From: a virus
DNA length: 37,448 bases
IMG/VR virus record: IMGVR_UViG_3300035182_000144
Coordinates: 1 to 37,448 of that record
Strand: one strand, 5' to 3'
Shown here: piece by piece, positions 648 to 37,448 of the stretch
Layout: every line of letters begins with the position of its first letter
Numbering within the stretch: position 1 is the stretch's first letter
Program-made: the position numbers and the translations under genes
Notes under the pieces: model-generated
Database searches by the model: none
Seen by the model: only the letters and a program-made list of their open reading frames with translations
What the model was told of the DNA's origin: nothing

Positions 648-675
648 AGTTTAGGCCCCGTTGATTTGGGCGCAA
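648..675 (-). promoter_or_regulatory. Putative sigma-70-type promoter of HTH-exonuclease operon, first copy
   Basis: On the minus strand a -35-like TTGCGC (670-675) and a -10-like TAAACT (648-653) are 16 bases apart. Both hexamers match consensus at 4 of 6 positions and both are unchanged in the diverged copy at 36898-36925. The predicted start near 641 gives a leader of about 40 bases before the HTH start at 599. The spacer contains TCAAC, which recurs at the same place in the promoter at 31769-31796. The activity is inferred. Confidence 0.55.
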
Positions 676-702
676 CACTTTGTTCATCACTGCTCCACAC
701 AT

Positions 703-718
703 TGTGATCTTTGTCACA
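703..718. promoter_or_regulatory. CRP/FNR-type palindrome TGTGA-N6-TCACA, first copy
   Basis: A perfect inverted repeat TGTGA-TCTTTG-TCACA matches the CRP consensus. Its centre (710.5) is 57.5 bp upstream of the putative -10 of the leftward promoter, giving about -70 relative to the predicted start. That is a classical class I activator position. In the second copy both arms are intact while the 6-base spacer has changed. Confidence 0.55.
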
Positions 719-25481: not shown

Positions 25482-25985
25482 TTACGCCTTGGGGTCGGGC
25501 GCAGGCTCGGCATCCGGGGCGGGGTCAACAGCGCAGGTCTGGTATATGGCCTCCAGCGTCTCCAGTTGGTCCACGGAAAGCCTGGACAGGTCCAAGACCG
25601 GAGGCATCGCGCTCCCGTCGGGCAGGGTGGGGGCCACCAGGGTCGGGGCATCTAGCCCGAGCAATTTGGCCCGGCGCTCCGCCACCCGCAGAGCCGTGTC
25701 TATCGCCCGGACACTTCCTGCCTGCACCTGCTTGGCGATGGCCTGGAGATAGGTATCACACCGCAGGATCTCCGTCTCCACCAGATCGGCCTTGGCCTCG
25801 CTGATGCCCTTCCGCTCCGCCGCGAAGGCATCCTTGACCAGCGCGTGGGCCGTGCCATGGCTGCACCCGAGGGCCTTGGCGATGTCCCGGAAGCTGTGCC
25901 CGTGGGCACGGAGCCGGAGCGCCTGAGTCTGTTTGAGCAGACGCCCGGCGGATTGCTTGGGGGTCTTGGTTGGTCTGCTGCTCAT
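25482..25985 (-). CDS. terS: Terminase small subunit, 167 aa
   Basis: The N-terminal HTH (ALRLRAHGHSFRDIAKALGC then SHGTAHALVKDAF, about 22-54) would recognise the packaging site. A central helix (AKADLVETEILRCDTYLQAI) and RALRVAERRAKLLGL-like oligomerisation helix follow, and the Pro/Ala-rich tail (DPAPDAEPAPDPKA) fits TerL contact. The ATG overlaps the methyltransferase stop (ATGA), and the TAA is one base before the terL GTG. A pac or cos recognition site often lies in or near this gene, but I see no clear iterons. Confidence 0.85.
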   Translation of the reverse strand: MSSRPTKTPKQSAGRLLKQTQALRLRAHGHSFRDIAKALGCSHGTAHALVKDAFAAERKGISEAKADLVETEILRCDTYLQAIAKQVQAGSVRAIDTALRVAERRAKLLGLDAPTLVAPTLPDGSAMPPVLDLSRLSVDQLETLEAIYQTCAVDPAPDAEPAPDPKA

Positions 25986-27373
25986 GGGCGCACCGCCTTC
26001 TGGCCCGTGGCCTGCTCCCAGCGGGCCACGATGACGTCGCAGTAAATGGGGCTGATCTCCATCCCGTAGCAGGTTCGGCCCGTTTTTTCGGAGGCGATGA
26101 GCGTGGTCCCGCTACCCATGAATGGGTCAAAGATGGCGTCGCCTTCGTCACTGAATGCTTTGATGAAGAACTCAGGGAGCCCGACGGGATAGGCGGCGGG
26201 GTGCCCGTTGGCCTCACTCTGGAATGTGGGGAGGCGGTTCCCTGGGTAGGCCATGCCCTCCAGGACTTCGTTCCCATCTACGGCGGAGCGCATCCCCTGC
26301 CTTTTGGCCGCGTTGGTATCCCCCGCACCTTTGCCAATCGCCTTCGGGACAGATTTGGATGGGTGTTGGACGGCCTCGGGTCGTATCTTCCATTCCCCCC
26401 GTGTGAATTGATAGATCGGTTCAAACTGATTCTTAAATCGTCTTGTAACCTGCTGGGGGATGCCCGACCGTTCCCAGCAAAACTCTTCCGCATAGTTCCA
26501 CCCCCAATCCCTTGCATGGGCCAGGACTAAGTCGAATACATACAACTCCCTGGACAATCCTTCGGCGTTGGGTTTGATGTTGCAGAAGTACGATCCATCC
26601 TCCGCCAGATTTGCCATGATGTTAGCCGCAACGTCACGATACCACTCGACATACTCATCGGTCGGGATGGGTTTAAACCCACTGGCCTCGTCGTACTTGC
26701 GCTGGCTGGCATAGGGCGGGGAGGTCACAGTCACATTGATCTTTGCCCCAGCCAGGAGTGCGGACACATGGGAGAAGTCCCGGCAGTCCCCACACATCAG
26801 CCGGTGCCGCCCCAGCGTGATGATGTCCCCCGGCTTCGTGGTGGGCACCTTGGGAGGTTCGGGCACCGCGTCTTCGTCCACACCAGGGACGAGCCCGCCT
26901 TCCGGCTCCGGGTTCATCAACCCCGTCACATCCGGGAACCCCAACAGGTCCAGATCGAACCCATCCGCGTCCAGCTCAGCGAGCTCCAGGGCCAGCATCT
27001 CGGCTTCCCATCCTGCGTTGAGGCTGAGCTGGTTATCGGCAAGGATGTAGGCCCGCGCCTGCGTCTTGCTGAGGTGTGACAGGTCAATGGCGGGAACGGT
27101 AGCCATCCCGAGCTTCCGGGCCGCCAGGACGCGCCCGTGGCCCGCCAGGATGTCGTCCCCATGGGTCAGGACGGGGTTGGTGAAGCCGAACTCTTTGATC
27201 GATGCCGCGATCTGGGCAACCTGAGCGTCGGAATGGGTCCGGGCGTTCCGGGCGTAGGGGATCAGGTCGGTGACGCGGCGCGTCACAACCTGCAATCGTT
27301 CGGGCGCTGATGTGTCCAGATCTTGACAGTGGGTGTTCGGATCTGGACAGCCCTTAGCCTTCGGGTTCGCCAC
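25982..27373 (-). CDS. DNA methyltransferase with N-terminal ParB-like domain, 463 aa
   Basis: The start is the GTG at 27373, with GGAGG 6 bases upstream; an upstream ATG at 27394 lacks a ribosome site. Residues about 28-125 are a ParB/Sulfiredoxin-like domain (DLIPYARNARTHSDAQVAQI then DILAGHGRVLAARKLG). The methyltransferase follows: catalytic TSPPY at 217-221 and the AdoMet motif DPFMGSGTT at 416-424, the order of beta-class N4-cytosine/N6-adenine enzymes. No restriction partner is near. Such phage enzymes typically protect virion DNA from host restriction or mark DNA for packaging. Its stop overlaps terS, so it is coupled to packaging genes. Confidence 0.9.
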   Translation of the reverse strand: MANPKAKGCPDPNTHCQDLDTSAPERLQVVTRRVTDLIPYARNARTHSDAQVAQIAASIKEFGFTNPVLTHGDDILAGHGRVLAARKLGMATVPAIDLSHLSKTQARAYILADNQLSLNAGWEAEMLALELAELDADGFDLDLLGFPDVTGLMNPEPEGGLVPGVDEDAVPEPPKVPTTKPGDIITLGRHRLMCGDCRDFSHVSALLAGAKINVTVTSPPYASQRKYDEASGFKPIPTDEYVEWYRDVAANIMANLAEDGSYFCNIKPNAEGLSRELYVFDLVLAHARDWGWNYAEEFCWERSGIPQQVTRRFKNQFEPIYQFTRGEWKIRPEAVQHPSKSVPKAIGKGAGDTNAAKRQGMRSAVDGNEVLEGMAYPGNRLPTFQSEANGHPAAYPVGLPEFFIKAFSDEGDAIFDPFMGSGTTLIASEKTGRTCYGMEISPIYCDVIVARWEQATGQKAVRP

Positions 27374-27417
27374 GGTTTGCCTCCTTTCGGGCACAGGATA
27401 GCAGGCTGAGGCGTGGT

Positions 27418-30453: not shown

Positions 30454-30680
30454 AGGGGGCCATCCGTGTCGCGGTCCGGGCCGCTGAGGTTCGCCTGCGC
30501 CCGTGTGGCGTAGCGCGAAGCCAGCCATTCGAAAAGGCCCCTGGTGATCGCCTTGCTGGTGATGAGAGCCTCTTCGATCTCGGCAGTAGTGGGCTGGTTA
30601 GTGGTAAGCGCCGTGAGCTTGGCGATTAGATCGGCGATGACCTTCGGGGCTTTCTGCCCGGTGGACGTGGTGGGAGTCAT
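30450..30680 (-). CDS. Hypothetical helical protein, 76 aa
   Basis: ATG at 30680 overlaps the pentapeptide gene's stop (ATGA). The protein is helical throughout: VIADLIAKLTALTTNQPTTA, then EIEEALITSKAITRGLFEWL. The C-terminus is Asp/Gly-rich. No family was recognised. Coupling and codon use match the neighbours. Confidence 0.55.
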   Translation of the reverse strand: MTPTTSTGQKAPKVIADLIAKLTALTTNQPTTAEIEEALITSKAITRGLFEWLASRYATRAQANLSGPDRDTDGPL

Positions 30681-31387
30681 GACAGCCCCTTCCTGTGGGC
30701 CTCAGCCATACGGAGCGCCTTGGCGCGGGTGAACTCAAAGGCCGCCGCCCGTTCCTCGGATTCCGCACTACCGTCATCGGGGAACTCTTTGGTGTTGCTC
30801 ACCCGGATGCCGATGGCGTCCCACTCATCCACGGAGTACCAGAGGCATCCCATCCGAACATAGGGGGTGCCGTCATCAGCGACCACGGCCCAGCACTGGT
30901 AGCTGTAGAGCCCCGTCATGACCACTACCGCAGCCAGCCTCAGATCGCCCCATCTTGCCCCGGCGAGGTTTGCCTCGGTGAGGTTCGTTCCGGCGAGGTT
31001 TGCACCGTCGAGATCAGCCTCGGCGAGGTTTGCTCTGTACAGGTTCGCTCCGGCTAGATTCGCCTCTGCCAGGTCCGCTCCGTAAAGGCTCGCCTTGCCT
31101 AGGTCCGCCCCAGAGAGGTCCGCATAGGCGAGGTTTGTCACTGAGAGGTTCGCCCCTGCGAGGTTCGCTCCGGCAAGGTCTGTGCCGTGGAGGTTCGCCC
31201 CGGCGAGTACCGCCTTGGTGAGGTTCGCCCCGGCAAGGTCCGCGTCAGAGATGTCGGCACCAGCGAGATCCGCCCCGGAGAGATCGGCGCCGGAGAGATT
31301 GGCCCCATACAGGTCCGCCCTGACGAGTTTTGCGCCTGAGAGGTCCGCACCGGGGCCGGGGGTCACGGGAATGGTGGAGGTGGTCAT
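30677..31387 (-). CDS. Pentapeptide-repeat protein, 236 aa
   Basis: Residues about 13-147 are near-perfect pentapeptide repeats of the A(D/N)LxG type, about 26 units with no break. These fold into a right-handed quadrilateral beta-helix. The C-terminal 90 residues are a separate domain, including VVVMTGLYSYQCWAVVADDG and YVRMGCLWYSVDEWDA, not made of repeats. Some members (MfpA, Qnr) mimic DNA and act on gyrase; others are targeting or signalling modules. The repeat region looks acidic on one face, compatible with DNA mimicry, but this is inference. Its ATG overlaps the upstream stop. Confidence 0.85.
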   Translation of the reverse strand: MTTSTIPVTPGPGADLSGAKLVRADLYGANLSGADLSGADLAGADISDADLAGANLTKAVLAGANLHGTDLAGANLAGANLSVTNLAYADLSGADLGKASLYGADLAEANLAGANLYRANLAEADLDGANLAGTNLTEANLAGARWGDLRLAAVVVMTGLYSYQCWAVVADDGTPYVRMGCLWYSVDEWDAIGIRVSNTKEFPDDGSAESEERAAAFEFTRAKALRMAEAHRKGLS

Positions 31388-31716
31388 GCGAGCACCTGCG
31401 CAGCAGGGGGGCGAACCATGTTGACGGCGGCTTCCAGGGCGTCCATGGCGGCATCCTCAGCGGGGCTGGGATCGGGCGTCGCCATGGCGGCCTCGATAGC
31501 CTCCCGCTTCGCCTTCATCTGGAAGGCTTCCTCCAGGTGGTCAGCCAGGGCACGGAGGGCGCTCACGGTACCCTCCGTGCAGGTGGGGGACATGGTCATG
31601 CAGCCCATGGACAGGTGGAGCCAGGGCTTGCTGACGCCCCGGTCGGGCGCGTAATGGATGGCGGCGGAGATGTCCTCCGTCAGTTGGACGGGGCGGTAGG
31701 GGAAGGCGGTTGCCAT
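31384..31716 (-). CDS. Hypothetical protein, first gene of the accessory operon, 110 aa
   Basis: The start is the ATG at 31716 with AAGGAG upstream; the ORF could be read from an ATG 87 bases earlier, but that start lacks a ribosome site and would cross the putative promoter. The protein has a beta-like first half (PVQLTEDISAAIHYAPDRGV, LHLSMGCMTMSPTC) and an alpha-helical acidic second half (ALADHLEEAFQMKAKREAIE). It is the first gene downstream of the CRP-like site and promoter at 31.8 kb. Family unknown. Confidence 0.6.
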   Translation of the reverse strand: MATAFPYRPVQLTEDISAAIHYAPDRGVSKPWLHLSMGCMTMSPTCTEGTVSALRALADHLEEAFQMKAKREAIEAAMATPDPSPAEDAAMDALEAAVNMVRPPAAQVLA

Positions 31717-31768
31717 GGTGGGCTCCTTGGGATGGGCGATGGGGGGATCGGACCCCTTCGATGATTCC

Positions 31769-31796
31769 AGTATCGCCAGAGTTGACCGGGAATCAA
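31769..31796 (-). promoter_or_regulatory. Putative promoter of the accessory operon
   Basis: On the minus strand TTGATT (31791-31796) and GATACT (31769-31774) are 16 bases apart. Aligned to the HTH promoter, the two share TTG, CC, TCAAC and the final ACTG at identical spacing (about 17 of 29 positions). The predicted start near 31762 gives a 46-base leader. The CRP-like palindrome is 56.5 bp upstream of the -10. TTGA and TCAA also form a short inverted repeat across the -35. Confidence 0.5.
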
Positions 31797-31822
31797 CCCC
31801 CAAACCGTGCTTTCCTGCGAAG

Positions 31823-31838
31823 TGTGATCTTCATCACA
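31823..31838. promoter_or_regulatory. CRP/FNR-type palindrome TGTGA-N6-TCACA upstream of accessory operon
   Basis: TGTGA-TCTTCA-TCACA, with a full symmetric core GTGTGAT/ATCACAC, overlaps the stop codon of the 31834-32106 gene. It sits at nearly the same distance from the putative -10 as the two sites upstream of the HTH gene (centre 31830.5, -10 starts at 31774). Confidence 0.55.
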
Positions 31839-32106
31839 CCTTCTTTGGATTCAGGAAGCAGCCCTTGCCTTCCAGGTGGGGACGGATATGCGCCCGGAAC
31901 TGATCGGGTATGTTCGCCCCCCAGCCGGGCGCTAACACACACTTGCAGGATGGACAGACATAGCCCCAGTAGCCGGGGCGGAACTGCCGGTAGTAGTGGA
32001 CCAGATCGGGCGGGACATGGAAGTCATCCTCCACCATGTTGGGCGGGTTGCACCCATATGCCCCAGGATCATCCAGCGGGGGTTCGGTCGGGAAGTTGGT
32101 GGTCAT
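31834..32106 (-). CDS. Small Cys-containing protein, 90 aa
   Basis: ATG at 32106 overlaps the helicase-loader stop (ATGA). The sequence is Pro- and aromatic-rich (PDLVHYYRQFRPGYWGYVCP) with a CPSC motif followed by SQDQ-free text and later a Cys and His pair (FRAHIRPHLEGKGCF). A zinc-binding role with Cys-x2-Cys and a distant His/Cys pair is plausible. It is the last gene of the replication module, and its stop overlaps the CRP-like palindrome. Family unknown. Confidence 0.55.
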   Translation of the reverse strand: MTTNFPTEPPLDDPGAYGCNPPNMVEDDFHVPPDLVHYYRQFRPGYWGYVCPSCKCVLAPGWGANIPDQFRAHIRPHLEGKGCFLNPKKV

Positions 32107-32930: not shown

Positions 32931-33711
32931 GGTTGGCTCCTTGGTTGGTGATGGATGGTTTCGCGCTATCCTGGGCACGGCTTAGCCAGTTGGTGGTGAA
33001 TCTCCCCATGCCGACGTAGGTTTTCCCCCGCTTGGGGTTCTGTTCAAGCCATAGCCTCATTCGCTTGGCCTCAGCCAGCGGGTCAAGACCTGGATAGGCA
33101 TCTTTCCAGTCGTCGAGAAGGGCCTGAGTCACGGGCCACTCCTTCAGCCCCTTCCCAACGCATGGGAGGACCACCACCGCCGGGCCGGATGGCGGCTTGG
33201 CCGCCTCCGGGCATGTAGTTCTCTTTTGGTCTTGGTCTTGGTCTTGGTCTTGGTCTTGGTCTTGGTCTTGGTCTTGGTCTTGGTAGGGCATCGCTCGGGC
33301 ATCCCCACGGGCATCCCCACGGGCATCCCGCTCGTCCTGTTTAGGCCAGCGAGCGGCTCCACCTCGGGCGGCCTTTATACGTTGGGCCTCATAGAACCCC
33401 ATCACCTGTTCCCACTCTCTGACCAGGTAGGGGATGCCGGTCCTCCCTGGCTGGTCGGGGACTGGCTTCAGCTTCGGCCACTTCGCCAGCATGTCATCCA
33501 GCTCATCCGGGGTGCAGCGGGCCAGCCATGCCAGCTTCCGGCGGTCATCTGGCAGGGTGCCACCCTTGGCCCATTGGTGGAGCATGAGAAGGAAAACGGA
33601 GCCCCATTCCTCACGGCTAAGGTTCTCGTAGTCCTCATCCATGAGCAAATGCCTTGGGAACACCCGGAAATAATCTGCCCGTTCAGGTCGGTCCATCTTG
33701 CAGTGTGTCAT
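32806..33711 (-). CDS. Replication initiator-like protein with (Gln-Asp)9 repeat, 301 aa
   Basis: The start is the ATG at 33711 with GGAG upstream; an upstream in-frame ATG at 33759 has no ribosome site. The N-terminal domain (about 1-120) with PERADYFRVFPRHLLMDEDY, then FLLMLHQWAKGGTLPDDRRK and LAWLARCTPDELDDML resembles DUF1376-type phage initiators. Residues about 150-185 contain the low-complexity linker: GDARGDARAMP followed by nine Gln-Asp pairs. The C-terminal domain (ITNQGANHVATHRHARRDA then LNDAGGHTLSGLSEPDGA) overlaps the start of the loader gene by 125 bases in another frame. The function is inferred from the N-terminal domain and the adjacent loader. No promoter or gene was identified in the 128 bases before it. 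Confidence 0.75.
   Translation of the reverse strand: MTHCKMDRPERADYFRVFPRHLLMDEDYENLSREEWGSVFLLMLHQWAKGGTLPDDRRKLAWLARCTPDELDDMLAKWPKLKPVPDQPGRTGIPYLVREWEQVMGFYEAQRIKAARGGAARWPKQDERDARGDARGDARAMPYQDQDQDQDQDQDQDQDQDQKRTTCPEAAKPPSGPAVVVLPCVGKGLKEWPVTQALLDDWKDAYPGLDPLAEAKRMRLWLEQNPKRGKTYVGMGRFTTNWLSRAQDSAKPSITNQGANHVATHRHARRDAALKAQLNDAGGHTLSGLSEPDGARPEETW
33228..33281. repeat. Nine tandem GGTCTT hexamers within initiator gene
   Basis: The plus strand has nine consecutive GGTCTT units, encoding the Gln-Asp repeat on the minus strand. A second repeat (12-base units starting GGGCATCCCCAC, about 2.7 copies) lies 15 bases to the right, at 33297-33329. Phage origins are often iteron arrays inside the initiator gene (lambda O is the model), so this could be the origin, but no AT-rich melting segment is evident. 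Confidence 0.55.
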
Positions 33712-35622: not shown

Positions 35623-36641
35623 TCGGCCTCCTTGAAGTTGAAGAGGAACCGGCGAGAGCCGGTCTTGGTGGTGGTGAACTTCCGGACGATTTCCGGTGTG
35701 GCGCCCAATTCGGCGGCTACGGCCTTCCAGTCCGTGCTGGAGCTATCCTGGGCCTTCTTCCAGGTGCATACCCCGGCGATGCCTGCGCTTTCGCCGATGA
35801 TGCCCTTCAGGATGTTCTCCAGCCGGGCTTGCTCTGTTTCGACTTCCTTGGCGCGGGCTCGGACCTCGGCTAGCCGCTTGGCGGCCTCCAGCGCTTCGGG
35901 CGTAGCGGGGAGGATCAGGTCCGAGTTCTTCTGGAACCGGCGGGTCAGATACTCGGTCGTGGCCTTAGAGCCGTCAACCTCGGGCGGGATGCCCTGGACG
36001 ATGTGGCGCTCCCACCATGCCTCCACCTTCTCCAGGATCATGCTTTCTACCTCCATGTCCCGGTAGAGTGTGAATACCTCCAACTGCTGACCGCTGAACA
36101 GGACGGCAAGGTCTGCGGTCGGCGTGTCGGTCACGTGCATCTGGACCGCAAGCTGGCAGGCATAGTAAATCGGGATGATGTCAGACCCAGCCTCGCCAAA
36201 GTCCTGCTGATTCTTCCATCGGATGTTCTTTGCATCCACCGGGCGCTGGTCGCCATCCGCCCATCGGGCGTCCAGGCTGGCACCGAGCACCTTGACGACC
36301 GGACTCTTCAGGAACTCGTAGGGGTTGGCGAAGGTGATCGGGTGGCCCACATGGTCGGCATAGCCTTCCAGGATGGGGCGTTCAAGGCGTCGGCCCCATG
36401 CCATCTGGGGATTGTCGGATGCCTCGGTCATGCCGCGCTTGTTCAGCCAGACCTGCATGGGGCTGGACCACTTCGACAGGCCCAGGATAGCGGCGACATC
36501 TGTGCCGCCGATGGCCTTCCGGCGTTCCTCCAGCCAGCCGTTGCGACGCTGTTCCATAGTCTCCTGGGGCTGGGCCTCCATGGCGCCGAACATGGAGGTA
36601 GTGGCGGATGCCGTGGCCTTCACCAGCAGTTCATCGCTCAT
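35619..36641 (-). CDS. YqaJ/lambda-type recombination exonuclease, 340 aa
   Basis: A complete gene: N-terminal GGTDVAAILGLSKW (45-58), then WGRRLERPILEGYA (Glu87), LGASLDARW (Asp124), PVDAKNI (Asp136, Lys138) and the helix YYACQLAVQMHV. This is the D-(D/E)-x-K core of the lambda-exonuclease/YqaJ family. The C-terminal region contains a coiled coil (about 250-290: LAEVRARAKEVETEQARLEN) that may contact the partner protein. The start overlaps the HTH stop by 11 bases. The N-terminal 131 codons are duplicated, with differences, at the other end of the window. Confidence 0.9.
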   Translation of the reverse strand: MSDELLVKATASATTSMFGAMEAQPQETMEQRRNGWLEERRKAIGGTDVAAILGLSKWSSPMQVWLNKRGMTEASDNPQMAWGRRLERPILEGYADHVGHPITFANPYEFLKSPVVKVLGASLDARWADGDQRPVDAKNIRWKNQQDFGEAGSDIIPIYYACQLAVQMHVTDTPTADLAVLFSGQQLEVFTLYRDMEVESMILEKVEAWWERHIVQGIPPEVDGSKATTEYLTRRFQKNSDLILPATPEALEAAKRLAEVRARAKEVETEQARLENILKGIIGESAGIAGVCTWKKAQDSSSTDWKAVAAELGATPEIVRKFTTTKTGSRRFLFNFKEAE

Positions 36642-36849
36642 CGCTCGCCCCCGCTTTCTTCAGGTCGTCAGGCTTCAGTTTGCCCTTGGCCAGTTTGAGG
36701 ATCTCGGTGGCGTGGTCCAGCGTCGGCTGGGTCCGGCCATTCTTCCAGAGGGTCACTGCGCTAGGGTGTACGCCGAGACGTCGGGCGAGAGCCCGCGTCC
36801 CGTACGCCTTGATCCAGGCGCCGAATTTGCTGAGTGTTGGTTGGTCCAT
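36631..36849 (-). CDS. Small HTH (Cro/C1-like) regulator, second copy
   Basis: The 72-residue allele of the 384-599 gene. The HTH reads LARRLGVHPSAVTLWKNG, so the Lys of copy one is Asn here; other differences lie at the C-terminus (DDLKKAGASDER). A 3-base insertion adds one residue after the start (MDQPTL). GGAGG lies 5 bases before the ATG at 36849. It leads the early operon and overlaps the exonuclease start by 11 bases. Confidence 0.8.
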   Translation of the reverse strand: MDQPTLSKFGAWIKAYGTRALARRLGVHPSAVTLWKNGRTQPTLDHATEILKLAKGKLKPDDLKKAGASDER

Positions 36850-36897
36850 TCCTGCCTCCATGTTTGCGGCCAGTGTTGGCCGTTGGTCCATGCTCTC

Positions 36898-36925
36898 AGT
36901 TTATGCACCGTTGATTGTGGCGCAA
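36898..36925 (-). promoter_or_regulatory. Putative promoter of HTH-exonuclease operon, second copy
   Basis: TTGCGC (36920-36925) and TAAACT (36898-36903) with 16-base spacing are identical in sequence and position to copy one, although the spacer differs at several bases. That conservation in otherwise diverged DNA supports function. Confidence 0.55.
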
Positions 36926-36952
36926 CACTTTGTTTATCTCCGCTGCACACAT

Positions 36953-36968
36953 TGTGACCTTCATCACA
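36953..36968. promoter_or_regulatory. CRP/FNR-type palindrome, second copy
   Basis: TGTGA-CCTTCA-TCACA. Both arms match copy one while three of six spacer bases differ. The centre (36960.5) is again 57.5 bp from the start of the putative -10. Confidence 0.55.
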
Positions 36969-36980
36969 CAGACACGCGGA

Positions 36981-37015
36981 CACAAGAAAACGCCCGGCCC
37001 ACCATGAGCCGGGCG
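36981..37015 (-). terminator. Rho-independent terminator of the late operon, second copy
   Basis: The same 8-bp stem (36991-36998 with 37008-37015) and TTTTCTTGTG tail as copy one; only one loop base differs. It would end leftward transcription entering from a neighbouring phage unit beyond the right edge. Confidence 0.85.
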
Positions 37016-37075
37016 CCCACTCCACCCTCACCGCCGTGAGGAGCCGTCACGGCACGCGGGCGGGTGATGGCCTCA

Positions 37076-37448
37076 TCAGAACCGAATGCCGACCCGGATG
37101 AACCCGGCCAATGTGGTGCGGCCACCCGTCACCAGGGGTTCTCGCACTTGGTAGAGGTCGGCTCCAAGGCGGAGGAACCCGGCGTCCCGCTCGATCCAGG
37201 CGCCGAAGGTTCTGTCAGCAGGGTTCCAGCTTGGCCCGACTGCCCACTTCAGAACCCGCTGGGGCGCCGCCGCCTCCACCGGGATGTCCACCCCACCCAC
37301 GACCACGCCGTCAGGGCTGGATGCCACCACGCGGCGGGATTGGTCAGGCATCCTCACGAGGGTGAGATCCACACGGACGGGCGGGCACGGCCTATTTGGT
37401 TCCAAAGCAACGGACCCGGAAGGGGGAAGCGAAGCAGGAGGGACGGGC
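37076..37448 (-). CDS. Membrane-anchored lysis-cassette protein, second copy, N-terminus cut by window edge
   Basis: The C-terminal part of a second allele of the 826-1440 gene. It shares the motifs VRVDLTLVRMPDQSRRVVAS, GGVDIPVEAA, LKWAVGPSWNPADRTFGAWI and the final IRVGIRF. The N-terminal membrane segment lies beyond the right edge of the window. Its presence shows that sequence past the right edge continues into another lysis cassette. The reading frame is open to the edge with mostly silent differences from copy one. Confidence 0.8.
   Translation of the reverse strand, partial: PVPPASLPPSGSVALEPNRPCPPVRVDLTLVRMPDQSRRVVASSPDGVVVGGVDIPVEAAAPQRVLKWAVGPSWNPADRTFGAWIERDAGFLRLGADLYQVREPLVTGGRTTLAGFIRVGIRF

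Follow-up and report, generated by a model that had tools for sequence, protein, structure and literature searches.

Promoter anatomy of the accessory operon and the HTH gene

Does the accessory operon of this phage answer to the same host signal as its early genes? The question is raised by a perfect TGTGA-N6-TCACA palindrome in front of the operon, which recurs in front of the gene for an HTH protein in the window (the whole 37,448-nucleotide stretch of viral DNA analyzed here). The recognized genes of the 37.4-kb contig lie on the minus strand, as do the promoter elements described below. The accessory promoter begins with the CRP-like palindrome TGTGATGAAGATCACA (31823..31838), which overlaps the stop codon of the upstream gene (31834..32106), a 90-aa CxxC protein gene that is the last early gene and ends the replication operon. 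After 25 bp comes a second palindrome, GTTGATTCCCGGTCAAC (31781..31797), a candidate repressor operator that covers the spacer and includes the -35 element TTGATT (31791..31796). A 16-bp spacer leads to the -10 element GATACT (31769..31774), followed by a leader with AAGGAG and the ATG at 31716; transcription is predicted, from sequence only, to start near 31762. The distance of 56.5 bp between site and GATACT given in the original prediction was confirmed: it runs from the palindrome center to the nearest -10 base and equals 59 bp between centers.

The HTH promoter, which drives the early operon, has a matching layout. In its right copy, TGTGA-N6-TCACA (TGTGATGAAGGTCACA, 36953..36968) is followed after 26 bp by GTTGCGCCACAATCAAC (36910..36926), which contains the -35 element TTGCGC (36920-36925), and after a 16-bp spacer by the -10 element TAAACT (36898..36903), where TAAACTGA is invariant in nine HTH promoters. 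The start is predicted in the same way to lie near 36891. The left allele carries TGTGACAAAGATCACA (703..718) and GTTGCGCCCAAATCAAC (660..676), and the site lies 60 bp from TAAACT in both copies. A terminator-like hairpin (36988..37018) just upstream of the promoter is conserved in relatives and probably insulates it from upstream genes. Also upstream, on the same strand, a gene at 1706-2086 encodes a protein with a Tlde1/YkuD (L,D-transpeptidase-like) domain. The HTH mRNA leader is probably about 42 nt long (36850-36891); it holds a near-palindrome, CGGCCA-N4-TGGCCG, which is mostly conserved in relatives and could be a hairpin or a further operator.

The perfect palindrome marks two independent loci

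A pattern scan of the whole window found perfect TGTGA-N6-TCACA at 703-718, 31823-31838, and 36953-36968 only, and the letters and coordinates given earlier were all verified. The accessory site had been called the third of its kind; the site exists, but that count is misleading. The window ends (1-1198 and 36248-37448) overlap at 92% identity with exact edges. The most likely reading is a circular or terminally redundant genome whose population is represented here by two alleles of one region; a duplication is disfavored. On this overlap, the sites at 703 and 36953 are read as two alleles of one HTH-promoter locus, and three independent sites were dismissed in favor of two independent loci. 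About 100 bp are near-exact at each edge of the 1.2-kb overlap.

Markov shuffles of the unit genome (about 36 kb) gave about 0.03 perfect sites on average, with one site in 55 of 2,000 shuffles and two in none of the 2,000. When all 1,024 five-base half-sites with an N6 gap were counted in the unit genome, only three reached two copies, TGTGA among them. With up to two mismatches allowed, there were 11 matches against 13.3 expected, which is chance level, and therefore the perfect matches alone count. One single-mismatch copy (2691-2706) lies between the gene for a 678-aa protein and the next gene, in a gap of 251 bp (2509-2759).

Set in register, the two 32-bp cores are identical at 18 to 19 of 32 positions, a value reached by 0.02 to 0.03% of window positions. 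The TTG, TCAAC, and ACTG reported as shared are indeed equally spaced, whereas the CC named with them is common to the left copy only (the copy at 36953 has CA). The earlier description missed that the shared letters form the second palindrome, GTTG-N9-CAAC. Within the window, this palindrome is restricted to the accessory and HTH promoters, and its GTTG half also serves as the -35 element (TTGATT or TTGCGC). The N6-gap variant GTTGA-N6-TCAAC has two copies (13220 and 30101), both within genes. A further candidate, CGGYCAACWCTGGC, common to the HTH leader and the accessory core (12 of 14 letters), was dropped because it is absent from the relatives' accessory promoters.

Half-sites and spacing are conserved in close relatives

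We scanned 2.9 million viral contigs for both palindromes 15 to 45 bp apart. The scan returned 52 stretches, with gaps of 25 and 26 bp the commonest (7 each), and the clade of this phage accounts for 10 of the 14 stretches with either gap. The promoters were then aligned, as the original prediction had proposed. No letter of the TGTGA and TCACA halves changes across 9 distinct HTH and 5 accessory promoters, whereas the flanks and centers of the sites differ among relatives. Across the N6 center and spacer, 50% and 61% of positions are invariant (Fisher p of 0.004 and 0.018 against the half-sites, uncorrected for kinship). The distance from the site to the -35 element (GTTG) is constant within each class in all relatives, at 26 bp for HTH and 25 bp for accessory promoters. 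In the accessory class, GTTGAT is invariant, and GATACT is present in five of five promoters, 6 to 7 bp past the second palindrome. The sole relative noted with a 17-bp core spacer is L058. Every clade contig that could be aligned over either junction carries the site, the mosaic L069 excepted. Half-sites and spacing are thus kept in all close relatives; loss of the spacing, named beforehand as evidence against the prediction, was looked for and not seen. The compared phages are closely related (about 84 to 92% in the HTH promoter region), so these figures overstate independence. A scan with a tightened core pattern, which was too short to capture promoters of the HTH type, recovered three known accessory promoters.

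The strongest independent points for conservation are three more distant or mosaic phages. In G001/L248 (major capsid protein 78%), one perfect site lies 27 bp before TTGACA-N16-TAATCT, after a terminator-like stem; the 60-bp site-to--10 distance is kept, and the core and first gene are unrelated. G002 (capsid 71%, DnaC 54%) has a single perfect site after its DnaC and CxxC genes, and the distance to its best -10 element is not that of this phage. Its two promoters showed no significant local similarity to each other (p = 0.18) and its HTH protein differs, so that a shared second operator in G002 was dismissed. L069, apparently a mosaic whose early and accessory operons have merged, has a one-mismatch site, TGTGACAAAGATCACT, as its only CRP-like site. 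It precedes the exonuclease/accessory operon, in which the accessory genes come after the exonuclease-like gene. Two divergent promoters share this site (L069:2990-3110; TTGACA-N16-TATACT and TTGCAT-N16-TATACT), and it stands at -41.5, the class II position, from the TATACT of the rightward one.

Perfect sites are a local trait of this clade: across the wider capsid family they occur at background frequency, with none in 1.07 Mb of viral loci and one in 1.28 Mb of genomic loci around the capsid gene, DNA that is mostly the structural half of the genome. Phage protein searches and one genome scan placed the best capsid relatives, at about 54%, mostly in alpha- and betaproteobacteria. In an uncontrolled survey of viral contigs, CRP-like sites before TTGACA promoters were common (at least 78 distinct arrangements); among the matches listed, site positions cluster near -63, -72 to -75, and -80.

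Genes of the early operon and of the variable accessory operon

The early operon runs from the HTH gene through those for a YqaJ exonuclease, a phrog_3657 protein, a RusA-like protein (our own reading; the family search gave no match), a replication protein, and a DnaC-like loader to that for the CxxC protein. The HTH protein (36631..36849; HTH_3, 4.1e-08) has 72 aa when read from the ATG at 36849, which is preceded by GGAGG. This is probably the true start, since several relatives have an in-frame TAG after the first ATG of the listed 86-aa open reading frame. Its scores against the YdaS and P22 Cro profiles are under the Pfam cut-offs, and no CI partner or integrase was recognized among the proteins scanned. 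Within the replication protein gene, a short tandem repeat (33226-33284) codes for QDQDQDQ....

The first accessory gene (31384..31716) has AAGGAG 6 bp before its ATG and encodes a 110-aa protein that matched nothing in family and structure searches. The second (30677..31387) encodes a 236-aa pentapeptide-repeat protein (Pfam PF00805, 2.9e-39) that matches PDB pentapeptide solenoids, QnrB1 and MfpA included. The operon had been described as starting with an unknown protein and the pentapeptide protein. This phage fits the description. In four relatives, though, an additional gene of about 61 aa comes first, and the pentapeptide gene was not seen in the stretch examined in those four. Among the operons read, the 110-aa protein gene is present in all and the pentapeptide gene only in this phage and L069; membrane-like genes replace it in two relatives. 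Elsewhere in the window, a DNA methyltransferase is fused to a ParB-like N-terminal domain (25982-27394).

Both promoters are probably activated by a host CRP-family protein

We put the probability that a host CRP-family protein activates both promoters at about two in three. A CRP/FNR-superfamily protein with E. coli CRP-type specificity would bind TGTGA-N6-TCACA about 70 bp before the start and recruit RNA polymerase to the weak core TTGATT-N16-GATACT in the manner of a class I activator. The same module would serve the early operon (HTH, YqaJ exonuclease, recombination, and replication genes) at its promoter and would act a second time where that operon ends, to drive the accessory operon of varying gene content. 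Expression of both gene sets would then follow the CRP signal of the host, be it a cyclic nucleotide or another. A further layer may be repression of one or both cores by the phage HTH protein through GTTG-N9-CAAC.

Both loci have the perfect 16-bp palindrome of a class I CRP-dependent promoter and a sigma-70 core (TTGATT-N16-GATACT and TTGCGC-N16-TAAACT). The cores are weak, under the threshold of the promoter scan, which fits activator dependence. Class I CRP sites are centered near -61.5, -71.5, -81.5, or -91.5. With a start 7 nt past the -10 element, the predicted centers here are -68.5 and -69.5, which is 2 to 3 bp short of the -71.5 optimum unless the start lies slightly downstream; at 9 nt they are -70.5 and -71.5. 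Activation is the best reading of sites predicted to stand at canonical class I (about -70) and, in L069, class II (-41.5) positions. It is also favored by the restriction of perfect sites to just two loci, well above chance and each directly before an operon. The original prediction of one regulon, with two promoters sharing an activator-type site, agrees with the conserved half-sites and spacing and with predicted positions that fit class I.

Known systems offer precedents for the site and its position. In E. coli, class I CRP acts at -61.5 and -71.5, class II at -41.5, and the native malT site lies at -70.5 (PMC10882989). The malT site is of the same type and also about 70 bp upstream of the start, whereas the sites here are candidate CRP sites in a phage, occur twice in one genome, and are joined by a second palindrome over the -35 element. 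CRP binds TGTGA-N6-TCACA in E. coli, and CgrA of the alphaproteobacterium Rhodospirillum centenum has the same 16-bp palindrome as its footprinted target (PMC4681086). That target belongs to a bacterial cyst regulon, in contrast to the phage operons here, and this phage is not known to infect an alphaproteobacterium. The alpha- and betaproteobacterial capsid relatives, together with the use of this palindrome in an alphaproteobacterium, favor activation. Several points count against it: the predicted site centers, 2 to 3 bp off the -71.5 optimum if the start lies 7 nt past the -10 element; the near-consensus core of G001, which would need little activation; the differing site-to--10 distance in G002; the repression of phage T1 promoters by CRP; and the background frequency of sites in the wider capsid family.

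Alternative explanations

The phage HTH protein could instead be the main controller of both promoters, acting through GTTG-N9-CAAC over the -35 element and spacer to regulate itself and co-repress the accessory operon. We regard this as a real possibility that falls short of even odds; it is compatible with CRP-type activation and does not exclude it. The target that we infer for the HTH protein occurs at these promoters only, and its HTH_3/Cro-like fold suits the role. In Cro, P22 Cro, and YdaS-type phage regulators, as here, a small HTH_3 protein is the first early gene product and a palindrome overlaps the promoter; here, by contrast, the profile scores are below cut-off, the proteins scanned include no CI partner or integrase, and the operator is a candidate. 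A common repressor on TTG-N8-TCAAC had been tentatively proposed. That proposal is weakly supported: a palindrome is present at both cores, but TTG is the -35 element, and at the HTH promoter of five relatives the right half has decayed. GTTG would be conserved as a -35 element anyway, which leaves CAAC as the independent evidence; it is kept in four of five accessory promoters. At the HTH promoter, the right half is TCCAC or TCTAC in L057, L060, L064, and L067, and CCAAC replaces TCAAC in L058. Exactly these five have an HTH protein with GVDPSAVTNWK or a close variant, as opposed to GVHPSAVTLWK or GVYPSAVTHWK. Decay confined to relatives with a changed recognition helix fits a protein that contacts its own promoter. 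However, this covariation is one clade split and thus one event, the accessory promoter keeps GTTGAT..GTCAAC/T in the same relatives despite the changed HTH protein, and G002, with another HTH protein, lacks a significant shared core motif. The recognition helix variants (H..L, Y..H, D..N) track the right half of the promoter palindrome.

The main rival on the direction of effect is that the CRP-type site represses, with the host protein lowering phage early transcription in starved cells. We consider this unlikely. The precedent is phage T1, in which cAMP-CRP inhibits pir, dam, and recE (PMC6737242); the operon downstream is of a similar type, with exonuclease and recombination genes. There too, a host CRP acts at phage promoters, that of a RecE-type exonuclease included, and ties phage genes to metabolism; the phages are unrelated, and the T1 promoters are inhibited by CRP, whereas the site position here suggests activation. 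A repressor site normally overlaps the -35 or -10 element, but these sites are predicted to stand at activating positions (about -70, and -41.5 in L069) beside weak cores. Activation is the direction that we infer.

It is very improbable that the palindrome works at the RNA level, as a hairpin (terminator or processing stem) ending the replication operon, and not as operator DNA. In GTGTGAT-GAAG-ATCACAC, seven base pairs could make up a stem overlapping the upstream stop codon, but no U-run follows 31823 on the minus (coding) strand and the terminator scan lists the element on the plus strand only; the G+C-rich stem with a U-run on the transcribed strand that marks an intrinsic terminator is not present. 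The inner stem pair is broken in relatives (TGTGACGGAGATCACA), and the same element stands upstream of the HTH promoter, behind a separate terminator-like hairpin. Coincidence, an ordinary palindrome near an ordinary gene start, is hardly credible: the two-mismatch pattern does occur at chance frequency, but perfect matches exceed chance and, as strong counter-evidence, the halves and fixed spacing are conserved in relatives.

Implications

Activation by the host protein and repression by the phage protein may combine into a two-input switch, in which early replication and a swappable cargo operon need the host CRP-family sensor on and the phage HTH protein low, with cargo genes swapped behind a conserved promoter. 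We hold this combination to be tentative and rather doubtful. T1 already provides a documented case of CRP acting at phage promoters, and the activation proposed here would therefore extend a known principle, not found a new one. If it is true, an uncultured environmental phage would have its replication and cargo genes gated by a host CRP-type metabolic signal, and nutrient-gated phages could be recognized, and co-regulated phage operons predicted, from sequence. With its constant promoter and exchangeable genes, the cargo operon would also be a place to seek host-takeover or counter-defense genes.
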